A stretch of 64,000 nucleotides of DNA from Neoroseomonas lacus (GTDB taxonomy: Bacteria; Pseudomonadota; Alphaproteobacteria; Acetobacterales; Acetobacteraceae), in assembly GCF_014644535.1 (NCBI RefSeq), contig NZ_BMKW01000010.1:91664-155663 (forward strand), read 5' to 3'. This document shows, piece after piece, positions 12,459 to 60,420 of this stretch. Position numbers and translations under genes: made by a program. The notes under the pieces were generated by a model. That model saw nothing but the letters and a program-made list of their open reading frames with translations, was not told the origin of the DNA and ran no database searches. How positions within the stretch are numbered: position 1 is the first letter of the stretch; each line of letters opens with the position of its first letter.

Positions 12459-13262
12459 ATGACCGACCTGCTTTTCGCCCTGTCCAAGATCCTGTGGTTT
12501 CCGGCACGCCCCGGCCACTTCGCCATCATCATCGGCTTCATTGGCCTGTTCATGGTCTGGCGCGGGCGGCGCTCGGGCCGCTGGCTCATCCTTGCCAGCC
12601 TCGGCTTCTTTTTCCTGCTGGTGGTCACGCCGGTGAACCAGTGGCTGCTGCTGCCGCTGGAGGACCGCTTCGCCCGCCCTTCTCCGCCGCCCGCCCATGT
12701 GGACGGTATCATCGTGCTCGGCGGTGCGGTGGAGCAGAACATCACCGAGGCGCGCGGCATCCCCTCGCTCAATGGCGCGGCGGAACGCATGACCGAGGGC
12801 GTCATCCTGGCGCGGCGCTACCCGGATGCCCGGCTGGTGTTCACCGGCGGCCAAGGGTCCTTCGTGCATGGTGGCCTGACCGAGGCGGATGTGGCGCGGC
12901 AGCTCTGGACCGCGATGGGCGTTCCGCAGGACCGCGTCATCTACGAAGACCAGGCGCGCAACACGCATGAGAATGCGGTGTTCACCTACCGGATGGTGCA
13001 GCCCAAGCCGGGCGAGGTGTGGCTGCTGGTGACCTCGGCCTCGCACATGCCGCGATCAATGGCGGTGTTCCGGGCGGCGGGCTGGCGCGACATTGTGCCC
13101 TGGCCGGTGAATTACCGCACCGGGCATTCCTGGGCGGCCTGGTACGACGCGCCCTTCCCCGAGCGGCTCGGCCAGCTCGAATGGGGCATCCGCGAATGGA
13201 TGGGGCTTATCGCCTACCGACTGATGGGGCGGACGGAGAGCGTTCTGCCGGCGCGGGAGTAG
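12459..13262 (+). CDS. YdcF/ElyC-like (DUF218) membrane protein
   Basis: A 267-residue protein with two N-terminal transmembrane segments (about 17-32 and 40-58) and a DUF218 domain: DGIIVLGG at residue 82, GGQGSF, the basic/acidic cluster RVIYEDQARNTHENA and LVTSASHMPRS. Relatives such as E. coli ElyC (YcbC) and SanA act in envelope or peptidoglycan-precursor metabolism. The start is chosen at the ATG immediately preceding the hydrophobic segment. The gene converges on mltG and overlaps it tail-to-tail by 56 bases. Confidence 0.85.
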   Translation: MTDLLFALSKILWFPARPGHFAIIIGFIGLFMVWRGRRSGRWLILASLGFFFLLVVTPVNQWLLLPLEDRFARPSPPPAHVDGIIVLGGAVEQNITEARGIPSLNGAAERMTEGVILARRYPDARLVFTGGQGSFVHGGLTEADVARQLWTAMGVPQDRVIYEDQARNTHENAVFTYRMVQPKPGEVWLLVTSASHMPRSMAVFRAAGWRDIVPWPVNYRTGHSWAAWYDAPFPERLGQLEWGIREWMGLIAYRLMGRTESVLPARE

Positions 13263-14268
13263 CGCTGCCGCGCTCGACCTCGCGCCAGCGGGCGACATTG
13301 CGGTTGTGCTCGTCCAGCGTGCGGGAGAAGGCATGCCCGCCGGAGCCGTCGGCGACGAAGTACAGGTAGTCGTTCGCGTCGGGGTGCAGCGTAGCGCCCA
13401 GAGCCGCCTTGCCGGGGCTGGCGATCGGGCCCGGCGGCAGGGCGCGGTTGCGGTAGGTATTGAAGGGGTGGTCGCGGTCGAGGTCGGCGCGGCTGATCGG
13501 CCGGTCCATCGGCGCGCCGGCGGTCGCGGCATAGGCGACGGTGGGGTCCGATTGCAACGGCATGCCGCGGCGCAGACGATTGATGAAGACGCCGGCGACC
13601 TTGGCGCGCTCATCGGGCTTGCCGGTCTCGCGCTCGACGATGGAGGCGAGGATCAACGCCTCGCGCGGGGTGGTGAGCGGCAGGTCGGGGGAGCGTTTGG
13701 CCCAAGCCTCGACCAGGGCGCGGTCCATCGCCGCATCGGCTCGGCGGACGATGGCCGCCCGCGCCTCACCCCATTCATAGGCATAGGTTTCGGGCAGCAG
13801 GTCGCCCTCGTCGAAGGCCGGGACCTCGCCGGTCAGGCCCTCGGTGCGTTCCAACAGGACGCGGATCTGATGGGCGGTGAGGCCCTCGGGGATGGTCAGG
13901 CGACGCTGGACCGGACGTTCCTCGCGCAGGATGTGCAGCACCTCGGCGAGCGGGGCGGCGGCGGGGAAGCTGAATTCGGCGGCGCGCAGGGGGCCGGCGT
14001 CACGGGTCAGCCAGGCGGCGATGGCGAAGGTCCGGGCATCGCGGATCACACCCCGTTCCAGCAGGGCTTCGGCGATGCGCTCGGTGCCGCCACGCGGGAT
14101 GACGATCTGCGCGGGCTCGGCAAGCGGGCCGGGGCGGTTGTAGGCGCGCCAGCCGGCGGTCGCGCCGAGGCCACCAGCGGCCAGCAGGATGATGCCCACG
14201 AGGAGGCCAAGCAGCGCGGCGGCGCGGCGGCGGCGGGGCGCGGGGATTGGCGGTGTAGCCTCGCTCAT
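13207..14268 (-). CDS. mltG: Endolytic murein transglycosylase MltG
   Basis: A 353-residue inner-membrane enzyme that cuts nascent glycan strands and limits peptidoglycan chain length. One transmembrane helix at about 17-38 is followed by a LysM-like region (IVIPRGGTERIAEALLERG, about 55-73) and the YceG domain. The catalytic Glu is Glu212 in ILASIVERETG; downstream FINRLRRGMPLQSDPTV and NDYLYFVADGSGGHAFS are also family hallmarks. It lies downstream of acpP and fabF on the same strand, a common arrangement, but separated by a repeat-filled gap of about 470 bases. Confidence 0.95.
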   Translation of the reverse strand: MSEATPPIPAPRRRRAAALLGLLVGIILLAAGGLGATAGWRAYNRPGPLAEPAQIVIPRGGTERIAEALLERGVIRDARTFAIAAWLTRDAGPLRAAEFSFPAAAPLAEVLHILREERPVQRRLTIPEGLTAHQIRVLLERTEGLTGEVPAFDEGDLLPETYAYEWGEARAAIVRRADAAMDRALVEAWAKRSPDLPLTTPREALILASIVERETGKPDERAKVAGVFINRLRRGMPLQSDPTVAYAATAGAPMDRPISRADLDRDHPFNTYRNRALPPGPIASPGKAALGATLHPDANDYLYFVADGSGGHAFSRTLDEHNRNVARWREVERGSATPAPAERSPSAPSVGRR

Positions 14269-14737
14269 GCGGCGCCGGGCCTTGTCATGTGCCGCGCAGG
14301 GGCGCCGCCCCATAAGCGCGAGGATGGTGATGTCGCGCGGCGGAACCGGAGAGGGCTTTGCCCCCTCCAGACCTCCCCCACCAAAGGCCTAAGGGCCTTT
14401 GGACACCAATACCTGGTGTTCGGCGGGAGGGTGTCTGCGGTAACAGAAGGCGTCCTGGGCATGGAGGTGAATTTGGGCACTGAACCCGCCGGGTAAACCA
14501 AGTATCAAGTATCGGTGTCCTCAGGGCATCAGGCCCGCGAAAGGCTGATTCCTGATGCGGGGAAGCGGGGTCAGTCCGCCTTCTCACTGTACGATCCGCG
14601 CCCGAATCGACGTTCCAATGCACAGGTAGGTCACAGCGGGCAGGGCCAAGTGACGGTGTCCAGAGGCCTTTGGTGGGGTGGCCTGGAGGGGCAAAGCCCC
14701 TCCAGTCGTCCTGCCCCGGACGGCGCCAGCACCGAGA
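14269..14737. other. 469-base intergenic gap filled by repeat copy A
   Basis: No coding gene is supported between mltG and fabF. Most of the gap is a paired palindromic element (separate entry). Its middle holds an extra partial arm, AAGTATCGGTGTC at about 14507-14519, suggesting nested or repeated insertion. If acpP-fabF-mltG are one transcript, this element would be transcribed inside it. Confidence 0.7.
14347..14704. repeat. Paired palindromic (BIME-like) element, copy A
   Basis: The left arm (14347-14420) has a GAGGGCTTTGCCCCCTC palindrome, then CCAAAGGCCTAAGGGCCTTTGG and ACACCAATACCTGGT. The right arm (about 14648-14704) is the inverted counterpart: GGTGTCCAGAGGCCTTTGG, then GGAGGGGCAAAGCCCCTCC. 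The centre is about 230 bases, longer than in copies B and C. Confidence 0.85.
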
Positions 14738-16021
14738 TCAGGGTGCGGCGCGGAACACGATGCTGGCGTTGGTGCCGCCAAAGCCGAAGGAGTTCGACAG
14801 CGCGATGTTGATGTTTCGCGGCTGGGCCTGCAACGCGACGCGGTCGATGGCGCTTTCGCGCGACGGCTTCTCCAGGTTCAGCGTGGGCGGGGCGACCTTG
14901 TCGCGGATCGCCAGGATCGAGAAGATCCCTTCCACCGCGCCGGCCGCGCCGAGCAGGTGGCCGATCGCCGATTTGGTCGACGACATCGCGACGTTGCGGG
15001 CGTCGTCGCCGAACAGCCGCTCCACCGCTTCCAGTTCCAGATCGTCGCCGAGCGGCGTCGAGGTGCCATGGGCATTGACGTACTGGATGTCCGCCGGGGT
15101 GATGTTGGCCGAGGCGAGTGCGGCCTTCATGGCGCGGAAGGCACCTTCATGACCCTCGGCCGGGGCGGTGATGTGGTAAGCGTCGCCGGACATGCCGTAG
15201 CCGATCACCTCGGCGTAGATTTTCGCACCGCGCGCCTTGGCGTGTTCGAGTTCCTCGAGCACCAAGACGCCGGCGCCCTCGCCCATGACGAAGCCGTCGC
15301 GGCCTTCGTCCCAGGGACGGGAGGCAGCTGCCGGCGTGTCGTTGAAGGCGGTGGACAGGGCGCGCGCCGCGCAGAAGCCGGCCACGCCGAGTTCGCACAC
15401 CGCCGCTTCGGCACCACCGGCGACCATCACCTCGGCATCGCCGAGCGAGATCAGCCGGGCCGCGTCGCCCAGCGCATGCACGCCGGTCGCGCAGGCCGTG
15501 ACGACCGAGTGGTTGGGGCCCTTGAAGCCGTATTTGATCGAGACTTGGCCGGAGGCGAGGTTGATCAGCGCCGAGGGGATGAAGAAGGGCGAGATGCGCT
15601 TCGCCTTGCCGGAGACGGCAAGCTGCGCGGCCTCATGGATGGTCTCTAGCCCGCCGATGCCCGAACCGATCATAACGCCGGTGCGGCAGCGGGCTTCCTC
15701 ATCGGGCGGCACCCAGCCGGAATCCTCGACCGCTTCCGCAGCCGCGACGAGCGCGAACTGGATGAAGCGATCCATCTTCTTCTGATCCTTGACGGGGATC
15801 CATTCGTTGATGTCGAGCCGACCATCCGCCTTGACGCCGGTCGGGATCTGCCCGGCGATCTTGGCGGGCAGCGTGGTGGTGTCGAAGGACTGAATGCTGC
15901 CGATGCCGGATTCGCCGGCCAGCATCCTTTTCCAAACATGCTCGACACCGAGGCCGAGCGGGCAAGCGATGCCCATGCCGGTCACGACAACGCGTCGCGG
16001 CGAGAAACCGTTCTGGAACAC
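14738..16021 (-). CDS. fabF: 3-oxoacyl-ACP synthase II
   Basis: FabF condenses malonyl-ACP with acyl-ACP during fatty-acid elongation. In 427 residues the thiolase-fold active site is complete: Cys177 in VVTACATG, His318 in YVNAHGTSTPLGD, Lys350 and His355 in TKSAIGHLLGAAG. The reading begins at GTG with an AGGGGG stretch upstream; the fold starts at RRVVVTGMG. The C-terminus carries the usual NSFGFGGTNAS. It follows acpP after 30 bases on the same strand, the standard acpP-fabF unit. Confidence 0.97.
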   Translation of the reverse strand: MFQNGFSPRRVVVTGMGIACPLGLGVEHVWKRMLAGESGIGSIQSFDTTTLPAKIAGQIPTGVKADGRLDINEWIPVKDQKKMDRFIQFALVAAAEAVEDSGWVPPDEEARCRTGVMIGSGIGGLETIHEAAQLAVSGKAKRISPFFIPSALINLASGQVSIKYGFKGPNHSVVTACATGVHALGDAARLISLGDAEVMVAGGAEAAVCELGVAGFCAARALSTAFNDTPAAASRPWDEGRDGFVMGEGAGVLVLEELEHAKARGAKIYAEVIGYGMSGDAYHITAPAEGHEGAFRAMKAALASANITPADIQYVNAHGTSTPLGDDLELEAVERLFGDDARNVAMSSTKSAIGHLLGAAGAVEGIFSILAIRDKVAPPTLNLEKPSRESAIDRVALQAQPRNINIALSNSFGFGGTNASIVFRAAP

Positions 16022-22751: not shown

Positions 22752-23075
22752 ATGATGGACAAGGAAGCGCTGACCGCCTGGGCGCTGGCCAATGGCTGGA
22801 CGATGATCGCCGGCAACCCAAGCCTCACCAAGCCGTCCTCCCCCAAGGAGGCGATCGTGCGCATGCTGCTGAAGGCGACGGTCGTGACCATCGAGGCCAA
22901 GAAGCCGGCCGGGAAATGGGAGAAGGTCGCCTCGGAAGCCTATGGCAAGGTCGAGGCCGACCCCGAGGGCGGACTGCCGCAGGGGCTTGGGCTGGGGAAC
23001 ATCCCGAGCCTGACCATGCTGATGCAGGAAAACCGCGACCGGCAGGTGTTCGCGCGGATGACCGGCAAGCAGTGA
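22752..23075 (+). CDS. Small hypothetical protein
   Basis: A 107-residue soluble protein, MMDKEALTAWALANGWTMIA, with a basic middle section (MLLKATVVTIEAKKPAGKW) and a helical end. GAAGGA lies eight bases before the ATG at 22752; an ATG nine bases upstream is possible. Family not recognised. No membrane segment. The pattern of hydrophobic and charged residues and its good ribosome-binding site suggest that it is a real gene. Confidence 0.65.
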   Translation: MMDKEALTAWALANGWTMIAGNPSLTKPSSPKEAIVRMLLKATVVTIEAKKPAGKWEKVASEAYGKVEADPEGGLPQGLGLGNIPSLTMLMQENRDRQVFARMTGKQ

Positions 23076-23084
23076 GCGGCGGCG

Positions 23085-23130
23085 TTGGAGGGGCGCCGCC
23101 CCGCCAAACTACCCGGCCAAATGACGGTGT
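23085..23130. repeat. Degenerate single arm of the paired palindromic element
   Basis: TTGGAGGGGCGCCGCCCCGCC followed by AAACTACCCGGCCAAA and a GACGGTGTC resembles one arm of the elements at 14.3, 31.0 and 59.1 kb, in shortened form. The second arm is absent. It lies between two genes in the same direction. Confidence 0.45.
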
Positions 23131-23253
23131 CACGTGGAAAGCCGCCTTCTGGCGCCAGGCAGGACGGGCCGGCTCCGCCCGCCGAGCGCCTGCCGTGCCG
23201 GGGAGCGGGGCATGGCGATTGACCCGGCTCGTTGCGGGGGGTTTTCTCCGCCC

Positions 23254-24681
23254 ATGCCTGACGCCCTTCCGCCCGACGGCCTGCTGGCCGACCTCTCCGC
23301 CCTGCTCGGCCCCGCGGGCCTGCTCACCGACGCCGCCGACATCGCGCCGGCGCTGTCGGATTGGCGTGGCCTGTACCAAGGCCGCGCCATGGCCGTGCTG
23401 CGTCCGGCCAGCACCGACCAGGTCGCCGCATGCGTGAAGCTGTGCGTCGCCGCCGGCGTGCCGATCGTGCCGCAGGGCGGCAATACCTCGATGGTCGGCG
23501 GCGCGACGCCAAGCGAGGATGGCCGCGCCGTCATCCTCTCCCTCGCCCGGATGAACCGCATCCGCGCGCTCGACCCGGTCGACATGACGATGACGGCCGA
23601 GGCCGGGGTGGTGCTGAAGATCGCGCAGGATGCCGCGGCGGATTGCGGCTGCCTGTTCCCGCTCAGCCTCGGCGCCGAGGGCACCGCGACGATCGGCGGC
23701 GTGCTGTCGACCAATGCCGGCGGCAACACCACCGTGCGCTACGGCAATGCGCGCGACCTGATGCTCGGCCTGGAGGTCGTGTTGCCGGATGGACAGGTCT
23801 GGAACGGGCTGCGCCGGCTGCGCAAGGACAATACCGGCTATGCGCTGCGCCATTTGTTCGTGGGCGCGGAGGGCACGCTCGGCATCGTCACCGCGGCGAC
23901 CTTGCGGATGTTCGCGCGACCGCGCGCGAATGAGGTGCTGTTCTGCTCGGTGCGCGACGAGGATGCCGCGCTGTCGGTGTTCCGTCGCTTCCGCGAGACC
24001 GATGAGACGGCGATTCGCGCCTTCGAATACATGTCTGGCGTCGGTGTCGATTTCGCGGTCAAGCACATCCCCGGCGTCACCCTGCCGGTGGCGGAACGCG
24101 CCGACCACTACATCCTGGTGGATCTCGCCTCGACCCGCGCCGATGCCGATTTGCAGGGCCTCGCCGAACAGGTGCTCGGCGCGGCGATGGAGGAAGGCGA
24201 GGTGATCGACGCCGTGGTCGGCGGCAGCGAGGCGAAGCGCACCGCCATCTGGCGCATTCGCGAGGAACACCCCGAGGCGCAGCGCAAGGAAGGCGCCTCG
24301 GTGAAGAACGACGTCTCGGTGCCTGTCTCGAAGGTACCGGAGTTGATTCGCCGGGCGTCCGCCGCCTGCGTCGCGCTGATCCCCGGCACGCGGCCGGTGC
24401 CCTTCGGGCATATGGGCGACGGCAATATCCACATGAATCTCGAGCAGCCGGTGGATATGGACCCGGCAGCCTTCCTCGCCCGCAGCCACGACATCATGGA
24501 TACGGTGAACGAGGTGGTGCGCGAGTTGGACGGATCGTTCAGCGCCGAGCACGGCATTGGCCGGCTTAAGACCGACATGATGGAGTCCTGGCGCGGCGGG
24601 GCGGAGCTTTCGACCATGCAGCGTATCAAGTCGGCGCTCGACCCGGCCGGGCTGATGAATCCGGGCAAGGTCCTTCCCTGA
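23254..24681 (+). CDS. FAD-linked D-2-hydroxyacid dehydrogenase (GlcD/D-lactate type)
   Basis: A 475-residue flavoprotein. The N-terminal FAD_binding_4 domain has VPQGGNTSMVGGATP and GAEGTATIGGVLSTNAGGN; the C-terminal FAD-oxidase domain has GHMGDGNIHMN (metal-binding His) and FSAEHGIGRLKTDMM. This is the D-lactate / D-2-hydroxyglutarate dehydrogenase group, which passes electrons to a carrier. A longer start, ATG 23212 with GGAG six bases upstream, adds 14 residues and is a good alternative. The gene stands alone, so the substrate is undecided. Confidence 0.9.
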   Translation: MPDALPPDGLLADLSALLGPAGLLTDAADIAPALSDWRGLYQGRAMAVLRPASTDQVAACVKLCVAAGVPIVPQGGNTSMVGGATPSEDGRAVILSLARMNRIRALDPVDMTMTAEAGVVLKIAQDAAADCGCLFPLSLGAEGTATIGGVLSTNAGGNTTVRYGNARDLMLGLEVVLPDGQVWNGLRRLRKDNTGYALRHLFVGAEGTLGIVTAATLRMFARPRANEVLFCSVRDEDAALSVFRRFRETDETAIRAFEYMSGVGVDFAVKHIPGVTLPVAERADHYILVDLASTRADADLQGLAEQVLGAAMEEGEVIDAVVGGSEAKRTAIWRIREEHPEAQRKEGASVKNDVSVPVSKVPELIRRASAACVALIPGTRPVPFGHMGDGNIHMNLEQPVDMDPAAFLARSHDIMDTVNEVVRELDGSFSAEHGIGRLKTDMMESWRGGAELSTMQRIKSALDPAGLMNPGKVLP

Positions 24682-24822
24682 ACGCACGAAGCCGTGTGCC
24701 AGCGGTGGGCTACCGTCCGGGCGACCCGGCACCACATGAGCCGGCCCGAGGTCATCGGGCACGGCGCGGCCGATGGGCCCTGTCCGGCAGCATGTGTTGG
24801 TTCGCAGGGGCAAGGAGCCGCC

Positions 24823-24894
24823 ATGTTCACCGAAGCGTTACAGTGTAACCCGGGCGAGGTCGCAAGACTTTCGGCGCGGGGGACAAACCTCTAG
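24823..24894 (+). CDS. Possible leader peptide upstream of lptF (23 residues)
   Basis: A short open frame, MFTEALQCNPGEVARLSARG then TNL and TAG, begins five bases after a strong AAGGAG (24812-24817) and ends 14 bases before lptF. Its seventh to ninth codons lie in the palindrome GTTAC-AGT-GTAAC. It has no recognised homology. The strong ribosome-binding site and its position in front of an essential operon make it a candidate leader peptide or uORF. Confidence 0.4.
   Translation: MFTEALQCNPGEVARLSARGTNL
24837..24849. promoter_or_regulatory. Palindrome GTTAC-AGT-GTAAC before the lpt operon
   Basis: A perfect 5-bp inverted repeat with a 3-base centre, 60 bases before the lptF start and inside the possible leader ORF. 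It could be an operator half-pair; alternatively it is chance. Confidence 0.3.
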
Positions 24895-24908
24895 GTTCGC
24901 GCCGCCTC

Positions 24909-29683: not shown

Positions 29684-31021
29684 ATGACCATTGCAACGCA
29701 TACCCTTCTCGGGCGCCTGCCCACGATCGCCGTCACCGCGATGGCCGCATTGCTGGCGCTGACCGGTCCCGCACGGGCGCAGGTCAACCGCGTCGCCGCG
29801 GTGGTGAATGGCGACGTCATCACGCTGAACGAGGTCGAGAGCCGGCGCCGCCTGCTGGCGCTGTCGGCCGGCATCACCGGTGACACGGCGGGCCGCGCCA
29901 ATGACCAAATCCTGCGGCTGCTGATCAATGAACGCCTGCGCACCCAGGAAGTCGCCCGCCGCCGCATCCCGGTGACCGATCAGGACATCGCCACCGCGGT
30001 GGGCGAGATCGAGAGCCGCAACAACGTGCCGCCTGGCGGGCTGCGGGAGAATCTGCGCCGCGCCAACATCGACCCGCGCGTGCTGTATGACCAGATCCGC
30101 GCCCAGATCGGCTGGAACCGCCTGCTGCGCGCCCTGCTCGGCAGCCAGGCGCAAATCGGCGACGCCGAGGTGGCGGAATACCTCGCCGCCGCCCAGGCCC
30201 GCGCCGGCCAGCCGGAGTACATGGTCTCCGAGATTTTCATCCCGATCTCGAGCCCCGGCCAGGAAGCCGAGGTGCAACGCTTCACCGCCGACATCATCGA
30301 CCGGCTGCGCGCCGGCGCGCCCTTCACCATGGTGGCGACCCAGTTCAGCCAGGCGCAGTCGGCGCTGCTCGGCGGCGATCGCGGCTGGACCACGGCCGAA
30401 CGGCTCGACCCCGAAGTGGCCGCGATCGTGCGCCAGATGCCCGAGGGCGCTATCTCCAACCCGATCCGCGTCCCTGGCGGCTTCGTCATCGCGACGTTGC
30501 GGCAGAAGCGGACCGCCGGGCGCGACATCGCGACCATGCTGACGGTCCGCCAGGCGGTCTTCCCGTTCGAGGGACAGGTCAATCCGGTGGCGCCCACCGC
30601 GCAGCAGATGCGCCAGGTGGAGAACGCCCAGCGCCTTTCGGAGACGGCGCGCAGTTGCGAAGGGCTGGACGCAGCCGGTGCCGCCGGGGCACGACTCAAC
30701 GAGCCGGGCCAGGTGCGCCTTGACGCGGTCACGCCGCCGGAACTGCGCGACCTGCTCGGCAGCCTACCGATCGGCCGGCCGACCCAGCCGATCATCGCCC
30801 CGGACGGCGCCATGATCCTGGTGGTCTGCACGCGGGAGACGCGCAACCTCGCCGAGGTCACGCCGGAACAGGCGCGCGACCAGATCCTGCGCGAACGGGT
30901 TGAGCTGGTCTCCCGCCAAGTGCTGCGCGACCTGCAGCGGCGCGCGCAGATCGACATCCGCTCCGTCGCGCCGGCGGCCCCGGCGCCGGCCGCGACCCGG
31001 CAGCCCGGGCGGCGGGGGTAA
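29684..31021 (+). CDS. surA: Periplasmic peptidyl-prolyl isomerase/chaperone SurA
   Basis: A 445-residue chaperone for outer-membrane proteins. Signal peptide ending LALTGPARAQ; SurA N-terminal helical domain (VNRVAAVVNGDVITLNEVE); a parvulin domain (about 180-290: PEYMVSEIFIPI, FTMVATQFSQ, GGDRGW); and a second, more divergent parvulin-like domain to about 425. The C-terminus is Ala/Pro-rich. LptD, encoded upstream, is a classic client. Confidence 0.92.
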   Translation: MTIATHTLLGRLPTIAVTAMAALLALTGPARAQVNRVAAVVNGDVITLNEVESRRRLLALSAGITGDTAGRANDQILRLLINERLRTQEVARRRIPVTDQDIATAVGEIESRNNVPPGGLRENLRRANIDPRVLYDQIRAQIGWNRLLRALLGSQAQIGDAEVAEYLAAAQARAGQPEYMVSEIFIPISSPGQEAEVQRFTADIIDRLRAGAPFTMVATQFSQAQSALLGGDRGWTTAERLDPEVAAIVRQMPEGAISNPIRVPGGFVIATLRQKRTAGRDIATMLTVRQAVFPFEGQVNPVAPTAQQMRQVENAQRLSETARSCEGLDAAGAAGARLNEPGQVRLDAVTPPELRDLLGSLPIGRPTQPIIAPDGAMILVVCTRETRNLAEVTPEQARDQILRERVELVSRQVLRDLQRRAQIDIRSVAPAAPAPAATRQPGRRG

Positions 31022-31033
31022 GGCCGTGACGGC

Positions 31034-31221
31034 TGGAGGGACGTCGCCCCTCCAAACCACCCCATCAAAGGCCAGAGGCCTTTGGAATGCCGTCAAGGGG
31101 TACCGGGCCCTGATAACCGCACGTGGATGTTTCGACTCACCGACGCCGCCAAGCGCCAAGTATCGGTGTCCAGAGGCCTCGGGCCTTTGGTGGGGAGGTT
31201 TGGAGGGGCAAAGCCCCTCCA
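31034..31221. repeat. Paired palindromic (BIME-like) element, copy B
   Basis: This compact copy fills the surA-rsmA gap. Left arm (31034-31085): TGGAGGGACGTCGCCCCTCC, AACCACCCCATC, AAAGGCCAGAGGCCTTTGG. Right arm (31156-31221): CCAAGTATCGGTGTCCAGAGG, CCTCGGGCCTTTGGTGGGG, then GGAGGGGCAAAGCCCCTCC. The arms are inverted copies of each other and of copies A and C. It ends 14 bases before the rsmA start. Confidence 0.9.
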
Positions 31222-31234
31222 ATCTGGCGCACCA

Positions 31235-32086
31235 ATGACCCCCTCCGACTTGCCCAGCCTGCGCGACGCCATCGCCCGCCATGGCCTCGATGCGCGCAAA
31301 TCGCTAGGCCAGCATTTTCTGCTCGACCCTGGCGTCTGCGCCCACATCGCCGGCCTGGCCGGTGACCTCACGGGCCGGCATGTGCTGGAGGTCGGCCCCG
31401 GCCCCGGCGGGCTGACGCGCGCACTACTGGCGACGCCGGCCGCGCAGGTGGTGGCGCTGGAACTCGACCGCCGCGCCGTGGCGTTGCTGGCCGAACTCGC
31501 GGCGGCGCATCCCGGCCGGCTGAGTGTGATCGAGGGCGATGCGCTCGCCGCCGACGCGCTGACGCTGGTGCCGGCACCGCGGCGGATCATCGCCAACCTG
31601 CCCTACAACATCGCCTCTCCCTTGCTGATCGGCTGGCTGCGCCAAGCGGCGAGCATCGAGGGCATGACCCTGATGTTCCAGCAGGAAGTGGCGGAACGCA
31701 TCTGCGCCGCGCCCGATACCGGCCCCTATGGCCGGCTCGCCGTGCTGGCGCAGTGGCGCTGCCGCTGCGATCTGCTGCTGCGCCTGCCGCCGGGCGCCTT
31801 CACGCCACCGCCCAAGGTGTGGTCGGCCGTGGTCGGCTTCACCCCGCATGCGGAGGAGCCTGGCCCAGCGCTGTTCAAGGCGATGGAGCGCACCACCGCG
31901 GCCGCCTTTGGCCAGCGGCGCAAGATGCTGCGCGGGTCGCTGAAGTCGCTCGGCGACGCGGAAGGGCTGCTGGCGACCGCCGGCATCGAGGGGACGCGGC
32001 GGGCCGAGACGCTGACTGTCGCGGAGTTCGACCGGTTGGCGCGGGCCGTGCTCCAGCGCACGGAACCGGCCGCCAGCGGCGCTTGA
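31235..32086 (+). CDS. rsmA: 16S rRNA dimethyladenosine transferase
   Basis: RsmA (KsgA) dimethylates two adjacent adenines near the 3' end of 16S rRNA. The 283 residues include the N-terminal KSLGQHFLLD, SAM motif LEVGPGPGGLTRALL, the VVALELDRRAVALL acidic residue, catalytic NLPYNIASPLL and FQQEVAERI, plus the C-terminal helical domain. The start is the ATG 14 bases after repeat copy B; no clear Shine-Dalgarno other than the repeat's GCCCCTCC-flank is visible, so translation may be affected by the repeat's fold. Confidence 0.96.
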   Translation: MTPSDLPSLRDAIARHGLDARKSLGQHFLLDPGVCAHIAGLAGDLTGRHVLEVGPGPGGLTRALLATPAAQVVALELDRRAVALLAELAAAHPGRLSVIEGDALAADALTLVPAPRRIIANLPYNIASPLLIGWLRQAASIEGMTLMFQQEVAERICAAPDTGPYGRLAVLAQWRCRCDLLLRLPPGAFTPPPKVWSAVVGFTPHAEEPGPALFKAMERTTAAAFGQRRKMLRGSLKSLGDAEGLLATAGIEGTRRAETLTVAEFDRLARAVLQRTEPAASGA

Positions 32087-51818: not shown

Positions 51819-52601
51819 ATGACGGAAGAAGAGCGGCGGATCATTTCCGCCTTCGTGGAACGGATCAGCGGCGCGGCGCCGGTGCCGCAGGCGCCGAGCG
51901 GCCCTTGGGGCGCCGCCTCCGCGCCGCAGGTGCCAACGCTGCCTCCGGTGGACCCGGAGGCGGATCGGCTGATCGGCGAGCTGTTCACCCGCTACCCCGA
52001 GGCGCGCTACCGCCTCACCCAGACCGCCTTCGTGCAGGAGGCGGCGCTGCATGAAGCGAACAACCGCATCCAGCAGCTGGAATGGGAAGTCGAGAACGCC
52101 CGTCGCCAGGGCCAGGCCCAGGCGGCGCAGGCCGGTGGCGGCGGGCTGCTCGGCGGGCTGTTCGGCGGGCGCTCCAACGCGCCGATGCCCCCGCCCATGC
52201 CGCCCCGGCCGCAGCCGCAATACCCGGCCGGCTACGACCCGCAGGCGCTGGCCCCGCAGCAGGGCCGCGGCGGGATGGGCTTCCTCGGAACCGCGGCCTC
52301 AGCGGCGGCCGGCGTGGCGGGCGGCATGCTGCTCGGCAACATGCTGATGAACGCCTTTGGTGGACATGGCGGGGCGGCCCAGGCGGCCACCAGCCCCTTC
52401 GCCACCGGCGGGGCGGATGCCACGCCGACCTCCTCGCCCTGGACCGACCCGGCTTCGGCGGTGGCCGATGGCGGCGCCAAGGCGCCGGTCGATGACGCCT
52501 GGGGCCAGCAGGATGCCGCGCCGGTCGATGATGGCTGGTCGCAGCAGGATGCCGGCGCCGATGATGGCGGCGGCGACTGGGGCGGCGACGAGGAGATCTG
52601 A
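51819..52601 (+). CDS. DUF2076 domain protein
   Basis: A 260-residue protein. The N-terminal motif MTEEERRIISAFVERISG, the DPEADRLIGELFTRYPEARY stretch and LTQTAFVQEAALHEAN are DUF2076 hallmarks. A Gly/Ala-rich hydrophobic region (GMGFLGTAASAAAGVAGGML) precedes an acidic, repetitive C-terminus (repeated DDGWSQQDA type units). Possibly periplasmic or membrane-associated; the function is unknown. Its stop codon lies in a hairpin. Confidence 0.88.
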   Translation: MTEEERRIISAFVERISGAAPVPQAPSGPWGAASAPQVPTLPPVDPEADRLIGELFTRYPEARYRLTQTAFVQEAALHEANNRIQQLEWEVENARRQGQAQAAQAGGGGLLGGLFGGRSNAPMPPPMPPRPQPQYPAGYDPQALAPQQGRGGMGFLGTAASAAAGVAGGMLLGNMLMNAFGGHGGAAQAATSPFATGGADATPTSSPWTDPASAVADGGAKAPVDDAWGQQDAAPVDDGWSQQDAGADDGGGDWGGDEEI

Positions 52602-52633
52602 TACCGGCCAGCCTTCCGGCCGACCTGTATCAG
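52596..52633 (+). terminator. Stop-codon-embedded hairpin after the DUF2076 gene
   Basis: CTGATAC at 52598-52604 pairs with GTATCAG at 52627-52633 and an inner GGCC..GGCC pair is present. The TGA of the stem is the stop codon. It is similar to the hairpin at 16820-16858. Confidence 0.5.
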
Positions 52634-52685
52634 GATCCTGGTTTCGCCCTCAGCCACGACGCGAGCCCTGCGCGCCATGCCGTTC

Positions 52686-52714
52686 CCTGCCCGATGACGC
52701 CGTCATCGGGCAGG
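52686..52714. terminator. Perfect 13-bp hairpin
   Basis: CCTGCCCGATGAC-GCC-GTCATCGGGCAGG, with no T-run. It lies between the DUF2076 gene and a stronger terminator, and may be part of a bidirectional structure or a regulator-binding site. Confidence 0.55.
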
Positions 52715-52747
52715 CTCGGCGGTATGATCCCTTGCACCATGGATCGA

Positions 52748-52776
52748 GGCCGGACCCCCAGGGGGCCGGCCTTTTT
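52748..52776 (+). terminator. Rho-independent terminator
   Basis: GGCCGGACCCCCA followed by GGGGGCCGGCC gives a stem of about ten base pairs, and CTTTTTC follows directly. This is the clearest intrinsic terminator in the window, ending the transcript of the Bug-divergent gene run (50014-52601). Confidence 0.85.
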
Positions 52777-52826
52777 CATTGGCAAATGTCATTGACGGCG
52801 CGTGGCGCATGATGGTTCCTCATGCC

Positions 52827-53681
52827 ATGCGTGTCCCCGACCTTGATCTCGACCTGCTGCGCGGCTTCGTCACCGTGGCCGAACGTGGCGGCTTCACCGC
52901 CGCCGGCACCGCGCTCGGCCTGACTCAATCGGCCATCAGCCTCAAGGTGAAGCGGCTCGAGGACATCCTCGGCAAGCGGGTGCTCGACCGCGGCGGCCGC
53001 GGCGTGGCGCTGACGCGCGAGGGCGAGACGCTGCTCGCCTATGCGCGGCGCATGCTGGCGCTGAATGACGAGGCGGTGCGGCGGATGATCGCCCCGCCGG
53101 TCGAAGGGCGGCTGCGCCTGGGTGTCGCCGACCATTTCATCCCGCGCAACCTGGCGCCGGTGCTCGCACGCTTCGCGCAGATCTATCCGCAGGTGCGCCT
53201 TGAGGTCGAAGTCGGCCGCAGCCACGACCTGCGGGCGGCGATGGCCGATGGCGTGCTCGACCTCGTGCTCGGCAAGCGGCGCGACGGGGAGACCGAGGGC
53301 CGGCCGATCTTCACCGAGACCATCGTGTGGGTCGCCGCGCCGGATTGGCAGGCGCCGGCCGAACGCCCACTGCCGATCGCCATGCTGCCGCAGGGCTGCA
53401 TGTTCCGCGACCGCGCGCTGGCCGCGCTCGCCCGCGCCGGCATCGCCTTCGAGGTGGTGTTCACCTCGGCCTCCCTGCCCGGCGTCGCGGCGGCTGCCCA
53501 GGCGGGCTTCGCGACGACGGTGCTGGGTCGCGCCGGGCTGCCGCCAGGGTTGGTGGAACTGCCCGGCCTGCCCGGCTGCGGCACGGCGGAGATGTGCCTG
53601 TTCGGCGATGCCGAAGGCCGCTCGGCGCTGGTCGAGCCGCTGATCGGCTTCATCCGGGAGAGTCTGGCGCCGGCTGGCTGA
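52827..53681 (+). CDS. LysR family transcriptional regulator
   Basis: A 284-residue regulator with a helix-turn-helix at about 8-60 (FVTVAERGGFTAAGTALGLTQ then SAISLKVKRLEDILG) and an effector domain from about 90 (GRLRLGVADHFIPRNLAPVL). The start at ATG 52827 is chosen over in-frame ATGs at 52779, 52809 and 52812 because family members begin just before the helix-turn-helix. It faces, tail-to-tail, the decaying gene at 53650; its target is unclear. Confidence 0.88.
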   Translation: MRVPDLDLDLLRGFVTVAERGGFTAAGTALGLTQSAISLKVKRLEDILGKRVLDRGGRGVALTREGETLLAYARRMLALNDEAVRRMIAPPVEGRLRLGVADHFIPRNLAPVLARFAQIYPQVRLEVEVGRSHDLRAAMADGVLDLVLGKRRDGETEGRPIFTETIVWVAAPDWQAPAERPLPIAMLPQGCMFRDRALAALARAGIAFEVVFTSASLPGVAAAAQAGFATTVLGRAGLPPGLVELPGLPGCGTAEMCLFGDAEGRSALVEPLIGFIRESLAPAG

Positions 53682-58451: not shown

Positions 58452-59072
58452 CTAGTATCCGGCCCGCGCCTGCAAGGCCGTCAGTTCCTCGATGAAGCGC
58501 GCCGCCGCCACATCCGGCGTCCAGGGCCGCCAGGGCGGGTCGCCATAGCGCACCGCGAGCGGGTCCGCCGCCATCACCGCGGCGCGGATGCCGAGCGTCT
58601 CGCGCACCTCCGTCGCGGTCCAGCCGACGACATGCACCGCCTCAGCCGCGGCGACCGCGACATCGACCGCCTTGTGGGCGCGCTTCTCCTCCGCCGTCCA
58701 GGCCGGCAGGCGGTAGCGCTGCGCAATCACCGCCAGCAGCCGCGCCTGCAATTCGGCGAAGCCCGGCCCAAGGAAGGGCTTGAGCGGGGAGATGCAGTCG
58801 AAGTTGATCAGCCCCTCATCCGCGTCATGCAGCAGCTCGCGCAATTCCTGCACTGGCGTCAGCCGATGGCGCGTGCGGGCGCGGCGCAGGGCAAGCACGG
58901 TCAGCGAATGCTGCGCGACCGAGAGCGGCTCCGGCCAGGCGGAATGGCCGCCCCAGCGGAAGGTGCGGGCGAGGCCCGTGGCGAGGTCCGCATCCGTCCA
59001 GTCGAAGGGCGTCGGCGAGAGCAGGTCGAGGCGCCGGCCGGAAGGCAGTCGGACCCACGCACGGTCGGGCAT
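58452..59072 (-). CDS. HD-domain phosphohydrolase (YfbR-like)
   Basis: A 206-residue HD protein. SVAQHSLTVLALRR supplies one His ligand and ELLHDADEGLINFDCISPLK the HD pair and downstream Asp; the layout matches 5'-deoxynucleotidase YfbR-like hydrolases that accept dNMPs. Start ATG 59072; the longer reading upstream runs into the repeat at 59113. The repeat therefore sits in its 5' leader. Confidence 0.82.
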   Translation of the reverse strand: MPDRAWVRLPSGRRLDLLSPTPFDWTDADLATGLARTFRWGGHSAWPEPLSVAQHSLTVLALRRARTRHRLTPVQELRELLHDADEGLINFDCISPLKPFLGPGFAELQARLLAVIAQRYRLPAWTAEEKRAHKAVDVAVAAAEAVHVVGWTATEVRETLGIRAAVMAADPLAVRYGDPPWRPWTPDVAAARFIEELTALQARAGY

Positions 59073-59424
59073 TAGCGGGGTGTCCGGCGGCGGTGAGGCG
59101 CGGCGCGACGATTGGAGGGGCTTTGCCCCTCCAAGCCACCCCACCAGAGGCCTGAGGGCCTCTGGACACCATTACCTGGTACCGGGCTTCGGGGGATGAC
59201 TGTGTGCGCTTTTTGCCCGACACGATTGTCGGTCGTGGGAACGCCCCTCCCGCCCACCACCCAATATTGGTGTCCAGAGGCCCTTAGGCCTTTTGTGGGG
59301 GAGGTCCGGAGGGGGCAAAGCCCTCTCCGGTTCCACTGCAGCACTCGATCCACGGTGATCACACCGGGCATCCTGGCACGCGCAACGACGATGGACGACC
59401 CCTCGCCCGCCGCGACGGACCAGG
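59073..59424. other. 352-base intergenic gap holding repeat copy C
   Basis: No gene is supported between the HD hydrolase and the asparaginase gene. Most of it is the third paired palindromic element; the right 90 bases before the asparaginase stop show nothing recognisable. Confidence 0.7.
59113..59330. repeat. Paired palindromic (BIME-like) element, copy C
   Basis: Left arm 59113-59185: TGGAGGGGCTTTGCCCCTCC, AGCCACCCCACC, AGAGGCCTGAGGGCCTCTGG, ACACCATTACCTGGTACC. Right arm 59261-59330: CCAATATTGGTGTCCAGAGG, CCCTTAGGCCTTTTGTGGGG, GGAGGGGGCAAAGCCCTCTCC. Same architecture as copies A and B. Confidence 0.88.
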
Positions 59425-60420
59425 TCAATACGCCGCGAAGATGCGCTCGAGGTCCGTGACGCCGGCGGCGAGCGCCAGCGACAGCAGGATGCGCGCCTTC
59501 TGCGGTGTCAGGTTGTCGGCGGTGACGAAGCCGGCATTGCGCCCGCGCGTGGTCTTGCCCGCGCGGCCCGAGCCGGCGCGCGACGACAGCACAACGACGA
59601 CACCCTTGGCGACCGCCTCCTCCAGCGCCGTGGCCATGGCGGGCGTCACGAAGCCGGGCGCGAAGCCGGCGGTGACGATGCCCTTGGCACCGGCGGCGAC
59701 GAAGGCCTCGATCGCCGTGCCATCAGCGCCGGCGTAGGTATAGGCGACGTCGACGCGCGGCAGCGCATCGAGCCCGCGCACGTCGAATTCAGTGTCCGGC
59801 GCCATACGGCGCAGCGGCTTGCGGTACCAGACGACCTCATCGGCATCGGCCTGGCCGAGCACGCCGAAATCGGGTGTACGGAAGGTCTGCAGGCGCAGGG
59901 TGGAGGTCTTGGTCACCTCGCGCGCCGCCTGGATCTCGTCGTTCAGCAGCACCAGGGCGCCGAGGCCGCGCGCGCGCGGGTCGGCGGCGACGCGCACCGC
60001 ATTGACCAGGTTCATCGGCCCATCGCCGGCCAGCGCGGACGCCGGCCGCTGCGCGCCGACGAGCACCACCGGCACCGGGATCTTCAGCGTCAGCGAGAGG
60101 AAATAGGCGGTCTCCTCCAGCGAGGCCGTGCCATGGGTGATGGCGATGCCGGCGAGGTCAGGGTGTTCGGCGACCAGGCGGTCGCAGATCAGCAGCAATT
60201 CCTTCCATTCCGCCCAAGCGATGGCGGTGGAGGCGATCGCCTTGAACGGCACCGGGATGATCTCGGCGACCAGTGCGAGTTCGGGCACGCGCGCGATGAC
60301 GTCGTTGACGTCGAGGACCTTGCCCGCGGCGGAATAGTCGATCAGGTCGAGCGGCCCGCGGCCGACCGAGGAGATGGTGCCCCCGGTGCCGATGATCGCG
60401 ACTTTCGGTTTCGTGCTCAT
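59425..60420 (-). CDS. Asparaginase-like protein with altered active site
   Basis: A 331-residue type II asparaginase fold. The first nucleophile Thr12 is present (IIGTGGTISS) and the catalytic Lys171 lies in VTKTST. The second conserved motif, normally HGTDT, reads HGTAS here (His96 to Ser100): Asp is Ala99, although the Thr98 remains. Both in E. coli numbering Thr89-Asp90 are considered essential. The protein may have weak activity, another substrate or none. Its start overlaps the isochorismatase stop (ATGA). Confidence 0.82.
   Translation of the reverse strand: MSTKPKVAIIGTGGTISSVGRGPLDLIDYSAAGKVLDVNDVIARVPELALVAEIIPVPFKAIASTAIAWAEWKELLLICDRLVAEHPDLAGIAITHGTASLEETAYFLSLTLKIPVPVVLVGAQRPASALAGDGPMNLVNAVRVAADPRARGLGALVLLNDEIQAAREVTKTSTLRLQTFRTPDFGVLGQADADEVVWYRKPLRRMAPDTEFDVRGLDALPRVDVAYTYAGADGTAIEAFVAAGAKGIVTAGFAPGFVTPAMATALEEAVAKGVVVVLSSRAGSGRAGKTTRGRNAGFVTADNLTPQKARILLSLALAAGVTDLERIFAAY

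Follow-up and report, generated by a model that had tools for sequence, protein, structure and literature searches.

A stretch of 64,000 nucleotides from Neoroseomonas lacus (the window, meaning this whole stretch) carries palindromes that face each other in pairs within intergenic gaps, which raises the question of what kind of repeat these elements represent, how they reached their sites and what enzyme might have placed them there. An earlier note had described three two-armed copies sharing one architecture at 14347-14704, 31034-31221 and 59113-59330, and all three are present with that architecture. As shown below, at least 80 copies of an old paired-hairpin repeat are scattered through the genome, and we read it, at a probability of roughly 0.68, as an old repeat of REPIN/BIME type, dispersed and non-autonomous. 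The elements of the window are as follows.

14342..14709, no strand assigned: copy 1, composite, in the gap from mltG/YceG (13207-14313, minus strand) to fabF (14738-15925, minus strand)
14344..14432, plus strand: left arm of copy 1, with a terminal hairpin at about 14348-14368, a spacer and hairpin 2, CCAAAGGCC-TAAG-GGCCTTTGG, at 14381-14402
14498..14535, minus strand: extra inner arm of copy 1, decayed (E 0.0095)
14641..14707, minus strand: right arm of copy 1, with terminal hairpin TGGAGGGGC-AAA-GCCCCTCCA at 14684-14704 and a shortened hairpin 2
23084..23169, plus strand: copy 4, a lone degenerate arm (nhmmer E 1e-10)
31030..31225, no strand assigned: copy 2, in the gap from surA (29684-31021, plus strand) to rsmA (31235-32086, plus strand)
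31031..31113, plus strand: left arm of copy 2, hairpins at 31034-31054 and 31066-31084
31141..31225, minus strand: right arm of copy 2, hairpins at 31171-31189 and 31200-31222
59106..59335, no strand assigned: copy 3, in the gap from a gene without Pfam match (58452-59072, minus strand) to an asparaginase gene (59425-60420, minus strand)
59110..59196, plus strand: left arm of copy 3, hairpins at 59112-59134 and 59144-59165
59242..59332, minus strand: right arm of copy 3, hairpins at about 59274-59295 and 59306-59330

Copy 1 looks composite because of the extra decayed arm inside it. Copy 4, which the earlier note had missed, lies between a gene at 22752-23075 and an FAD-oxidase gene at 23254-24681; among the seven relatives that have the same adjacent gene pair, the junction measures 39-103 nt in six and 366 nt in G306, and an arm is absent from it in all seven. 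The assignment of copies 1 and 2 to mltG-fabF and surA-rsmA was right, whereas the "HD hydrolase leader" given for copy 3 was not confirmed, its neighbours being a 206-aa gene without Pfam match on one side and an asparaginase gene on the other. Rfam covariance models gave no match to the window at the gathering score. Three sub-threshold matches fell on copy 3, among them one to a miRNA family (E 0.00041), whose 32.4 bits are far under the cut-off of 128 and which we attribute to hairpin structure in general.

The full element is about 235 bp long and has four hairpins, in the order hairpin, C-rich spacer, hairpin, centre and inverted counterpart. A typical arm begins outermost with a GAAGGT or GGAACC edge, followed by a terminal hairpin of the form GGAGGGGC-NNN-GCCCCTCC or of a longer one, GAGAGGGGC, then a C-rich spacer with CCCCACC at its end, and hairpin 2 (for example CCAAAGGCC-loop-GGCCTTTGG). 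Inward of hairpin 2 stand GGACACC or GGAAACC and a GATACTTGG-like sequence, so that the inverted repeat extends further inward than the GGACACC edge at which the earlier note had ended it. When arms no more than 450 bp apart were paired, 69 two-armed units were obtained, 47 of them from the genome of N. lacus itself, with a median length of 237 bp (range 142-369, mostly 190-280 bp). The 82 sampled clusters of this genome comprise 48 with a plus-strand arm first and a minus-strand arm last, 33 with a single recognised arm and one with two minus-strand arms. Some right arms (loci L012, L013, L019 and L024, read by eye) contain an extra hairpin module, indicating that the repeat family is a mosaic.

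We examined the stems in 208 distinct arms from the own genome and its relatives, aligned by sequence only and compared with 200 shuffles that ignore kinship. In stem 1, 93.9% of cells were paired and 102 two-sided changes were found, compared to a shuffled mean of 23.4 (maximum 38); in stem 2, the values were 85.5% and 39, compared to a mean of 13.3 (maximum 20). Stem 2 occurs in differing paired forms, such as CCAAATGAC, CCAAAGTGC, CCAGGGACC and CCAGGTGCT, and was unbroken in 121 of 186 arms under a strict search. The two arms of one element, on the other hand, resembled each other no more closely than did arms taken from different elements (39.8 vs 41.1), and the spacers, recognised in 55 of the 69 pairs, were less alike within a unit than after shuffling (6.82 vs 7.18 of 11 positions; 983 of 1000 shuffles equalled or exceeded the observed value). 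Taken together, the local hairpins look maintained, keeping their pairing through two-sided changes in the alignment, and the left-right match does not. Single strands of copies 2 and 3 folded much more stably than shuffled sequence (z −9.4 and −10.0 as RNA, and −8.0 for copy 3 as DNA). Folding favours one long hairpin that joins the two arms, but since arm-to-arm likeness is not in excess, there is no sign of selection for it.

Short pieces of the arm carry little information. With up to three mismatches, GGAGGGGC-NNN-GCCCCTCC matched the window 5 times compared to a shuffled mean of 2.43 (11 of 100 shuffles reached 5), and GGTGTCCANAGGCC matched 27 times compared to a mean of 24.7. As such counts are within the range of shuffled sequence, these pieces prove little by themselves, and it is the whole arm that is telling. 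Across the genome (6.40 Mb in 73 contigs, 97% complete), a 17-base inner arm pattern with at most one mismatch matched 169 times, compared to a single match for the reversed control. A query with a 67-base arm had 268 candidate places, of which 40 were scored, and gave at least 53 matches. In a set of 80 loci, 10 matches in 6 loci were found in the true sequence and none in its reverse. Chance palindromes of a G+C-rich genome, an explanation with which the counts of the short pieces would agree, are refuted by the 169 matches against one, and we regard their probability as negligible. Thus, the repeat is far from confined to the three copies first seen; a genome with those three alone would, by the earlier note, have refuted its reading. 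Because the arm profile finds seven arms in the window where the strict pattern finds five, the genome may hold somewhat more than 200 arms, a figure extrapolated from this one window.

Arms were found in 15 of 16 relatives of the same genus and in none of the 12 other members of the class that were drawn. A class-wide draw matched in 2 of 289 genomes, namely the own genome and one weak match, and listed three genomes of the same family, none of which matched. In a draw of Acetobacteraceae, at least 67 of 249 genomes and at least 36 of 102 genera matched the repeat, a lower bound because at most three candidates per genome were scored. To date, nearly all finds of the repeat family are from Acetobacteraceae. 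Among named records, 6 of 80 rsmA neighbourhoods contain arms, including those of Falsiroseomonas stagni, F. algicola and Pararoseomonas baculiformis; the rsmA of the own genome shares 85% identity with the gene of Neoroseomonas terrae LMG 31159 and 90% with the one in an Acetobacteraceae MAG. By eye, the sequences upstream of rsmA in G014, G012 and G322 are the same as in N. terrae, this MAG and Roseomonas sp. CECT 9278, which places the genus at or near Neoroseomonas. The same hairpin-spacer-hairpin plan recurs at 15 loci of other genera, where it is often more compact and the arms face each other in 6 of the 15; a seventh, L197, has only a weak partner arm. A phage search for the repeat gave no match, and a plasmid search gave one match of 35 bases, on an Eggerthella lenta plasmid, which was taken as chance. 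A 41-base exact pattern found no match in genome contigs, which shows only that the variants are the species' own or that near records were left out.

The position of the elements relative to genes was evaluated in the window together with 70 loci of the own genome, stretches picked for holding arms, with genes called by our own gene finder. The 82 clusters lie in tandem gaps in 58 cases, in convergent gaps in 21, in divergent gaps in none and at edges in 3, compared to 225 tandem, 48 convergent and 41 divergent background junctions in the same stretches. The absence from divergent gaps (0 of 79) has a p of 3e-5 by junction share, of 4e-9 by the share of divergent gap length (0.22, clusters subtracted) and of 0.002 against the window's own junctions (7 of 58 divergent), and for convergent gaps the excess is of borderline significance (p 0.053). 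In the 37 tandem two-armed cases, the element stood at a median distance of 18 from the stop codon before it and of 55 from the start codon after it, and the stop was the closer of the two in 27 of the 37 gaps (Wilcoxon p 0.003). At the 15 loci of other genera, read by eye, 8 gaps are tandem, 7 convergent and none divergent. The strict intergenic placement that the earlier note wished to see checked holds for most clusters, but 5 of the 82 overlap a predicted gene, one of them by 735 bases.

Orthologous junctions were compared in ten relatives, and they proved filled or empty depending on the species. The surA-rsmA gap with arms measures 213 nt in the own genome, 285 in G012, 202 in G001 and 592 in G014; without an arm it measures 1-11 nt in six relatives and 144 nt in G010. 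The mltG-fabF gap, comparable in eight relatives, measures 469 nt in the own genome and 255 in G012 with arms, 231 in G010 with one arm, and without arms 13 nt in four relatives and 79 and 169 in two. Conversely, the guanylate-kinase junction is 3 nt long in the own genome and 166 and 398 nt long, with arms, in G003 and G014, compared to 1-31 nt in five others (seven comparable), and two more orthologous junctions have arms in relatives alone. Extra DNA without arms of this family was also seen, in the 144-nt surA-rsmA gap of G010 and in 488 nt of G003 at the junction orthologous to window 52601-52827; such junctions, filled elsewhere by the family, may accept several kinds of insert.

The repeat has subfamilies, and the doublet is copied as one unit. 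In 32 of the 47 own two-armed units, the centre is common to another element, forming nine groups, and in the three centre groups that were aligned, the similarity stops at the element ends. Shared centres together with similarity that ends at the element ends indicate that the copying to new places involved whole units. No target duplication was evident at 69 element pairs, flank words of 5-9 bases being shared only as in shuffles; 4-base words were slightly in excess (61 of 69 vs a shuffled mean of 54.5, p 0.03), this being one of six lengths. Among own pairs with an alignment over 80% or more of their length, the highest identity is 83.9%, so that no recent burst is seen among the sampled copies and present activity is unproved.

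RAYT is the transposase usually thought to move REP-type repeats, and the earlier note had put it forward as the mobiliser. A search with its Pfam family PF01797 (Y1_Tnp) was negative in the own genome and positive in 1 of 35 genus genomes, G305, which is outside the set screened for the repeat. Within the Acetobacteraceae draw, PF01797 occurs in 26 and the repeat in at least 67 of the 249 genomes, with both in 9 compared to about 7 expected by chance, so that there is no association across Acetobacteraceae and 58 of the 67 repeat-matching genomes are outside the PF01797 list. RAYT as mobiliser was therefore rejected. The IS91-type Y2 transposase PF04986 was also rejected: it is not detected in the own genome, and a single relative among 35 genus genomes is the sole positive, all 14 named control genomes being negative too. 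The 157 proteins flanking sampled elements form small similarity groups only (the largest of 6), and neither a gene between arms nor a full-length copy was found in the sampled loci. No constant GTAG or CGTC tag stands at either end of 130 arms. GTAG occurs in the outer 18 nt of 7 arms compared to 4 outside flanks; the counts there for CTAC, CGTC and GACG are 0, 2 and 21 (control 11 for GACG), and those in the inner 25 nt are 0 for GTAG, 1 for CTAC, 15 for CGTC and 2 for GACG.

Several published systems resemble the repeat. E. coli BIMEs and rhizobial RIME/ABC elements are mosaic intergenic elements of several palindromes, and the Acetobacteraceae repeat is likewise a mosaic of palindromes, but its host group and modules seem to differ from theirs. 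Correia/NEMIS MITEs, which carry target duplications, are also short and numerous and have inverted ends, whereas no target duplication was detected here. REPINs of Pseudomonas and E. coli are described (PMC3116915) as extragenic, hairpin-forming inverted palindrome doublets copied as a unit, with singles as likely remnants. The present repeat shares the inverted doublets, unit copying, extragenic position, hairpins and lone arms that are likely remnants, but each of its ends has two hairpins, the unit measures about 235 bp, and no RAYT was found with it. REP families without a dedicated transposase are known, many of them alphaproteobacterial, with dimers, variable spacers and heterodimers; according to PMC3733652, Acetobacteraceae are devoid of CGTC repeats. 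Our repeat resembles those CGTC-tagged and untagged REPs in that no dedicated transposase was found with it and in its dimers and variable spacers, and differs from the CGTC-tagged ones in having no constant CGTC or GTAG tag. "REP/BIME-type", the class proposed in the earlier note, agrees with how the elements are built, how many there are, their position between genes and behind gene ends, and their copying as whole elements, but "mobilised by RAYT" does not fit. As the repeat works like a REPIN or BIME yet lacks the RAYT feature, we file it under REP-type palindromic repeats rather than as a REPIN; RAYT-less REP families have been published before (PMC3733652). A literature text search returned no account of extragenic palindromic or miniature inverted-repeat elements in Roseomonas, which does not prove the repeat unpublished, and nothing was found that joins REPIN, RAYT, inverted repeats and Alphaproteobacteria; PMC4686929 mentions REP in passing.

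How the units spread can be weighed against these results. A REPIN moved in trans by a RAYT (a Y1 tyrosine transposase) would account for the inverted doublets, the hairpins, the extragenic placement and the undetected target duplication, all of which match REPINs (PMC3116915), but the absence of PF01797 from the own genome and its rarity in the genus, the 58 of 67 repeat-matching genomes outside its list and the scarcity of outer-end GTAG make this reading very unlikely. A MITE of a DDE-type insertion sequence with long terminal inverted repeats would explain the inverted ends, the usual size of 190-280 bp and the subfamilies with shared centres. We nevertheless consider it improbable, since the 69 pairs show no clear target duplication, the changes preserve local hairpins and not left-right complementarity, and a full-length copy is absent from the sampled loci; a single known insertion-sequence end that would explain all the matches, the second outcome the earlier note had named against itself, did not appear either.

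The elements could instead be a 3'-end module maintained by the host, either a bidirectional terminator or an mRNA-stabilising stem, copied by recombination and not by transposition. The complete avoidance of divergent gaps, the closeness to stop codons and the stem-keeping two-sided changes in old copies speak for such a module. However, the aligned ends, read by eye, have no consistent T-run beyond the outer stem, several copies separate genes that lie close together in relatives (surA-rsmA, mltG-fabF), which would be awkward for a terminator, and the copying of whole units into unrelated flanks looks like transposition, so that we hold this explanation to be rather unlikely.

For the old, non-autonomous REPIN/BIME-type repeat that we favour, the most likely situation is that the mobiliser is lost or unknown and that the repeats are tolerated or used as 3'-end hairpins. 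Units would have spread in the past through an enzyme recognising the folded terminal hairpins in single-stranded DNA and inserting them without duplicating the target, an enzyme that would now be lost or unrecognised. Copies would be kept where the hairpins do no harm or are of use, at mRNA 3' ends and between operon genes, positions at which 3'-to-5' exonucleases can be stopped, or transcription influenced, by a stable stem, and those landing in promoter regions would be removed by selection; any 3'-end role is suggested by position. Only tentatively do we propose that an unrecognised hairpin-reading enzyme other than the Y1 and Y2 HUH types inserts the four-hairpin units behind genes without target duplication and sustains the repeat across Acetobacteraceae. 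The repeat adds a large, family-wide population to those known, with copies, subfamilies and empty sites that can be read and the usual mobiliser not found, and it offers a natural test between REP-type hairpins that persist by transposition and those that persist by use at mRNA 3' ends.

Several minor observations were made at individual sites. Within window 31022-31240, GTGACGGC on the left of copy 2 resembles, by eye, the rsmA start region of relatives, and the present ATG lies on the right of the element; from this the insertion of copy 2 seems to have displaced the rsmA start codon, a caution for gene prediction. The junction at window 24682-24908 measures 227 nt in the own genome compared to 926-983 nt in G001, G010, G306, G308 and G004, and the extra DNA of these relatives looks coding and glycosyltransferase-like by eye. 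At locus L172 (7292-7426 of the locus; contig C13 of the own genome, 90791-90925), another long palindrome with the ends GAGTCCGTTTGGAAA and TTTCCAAACAGCCTC sits within the loop of hairpin 2 with TAA on either side; it looks like a miniature element of the IS5/IS1031 type. Loci L160 and L166 have GAG-type starts at the same CTAAGAG spot as the L172 insert. REPs are known as targets of insertion sequences (PMC1525189).
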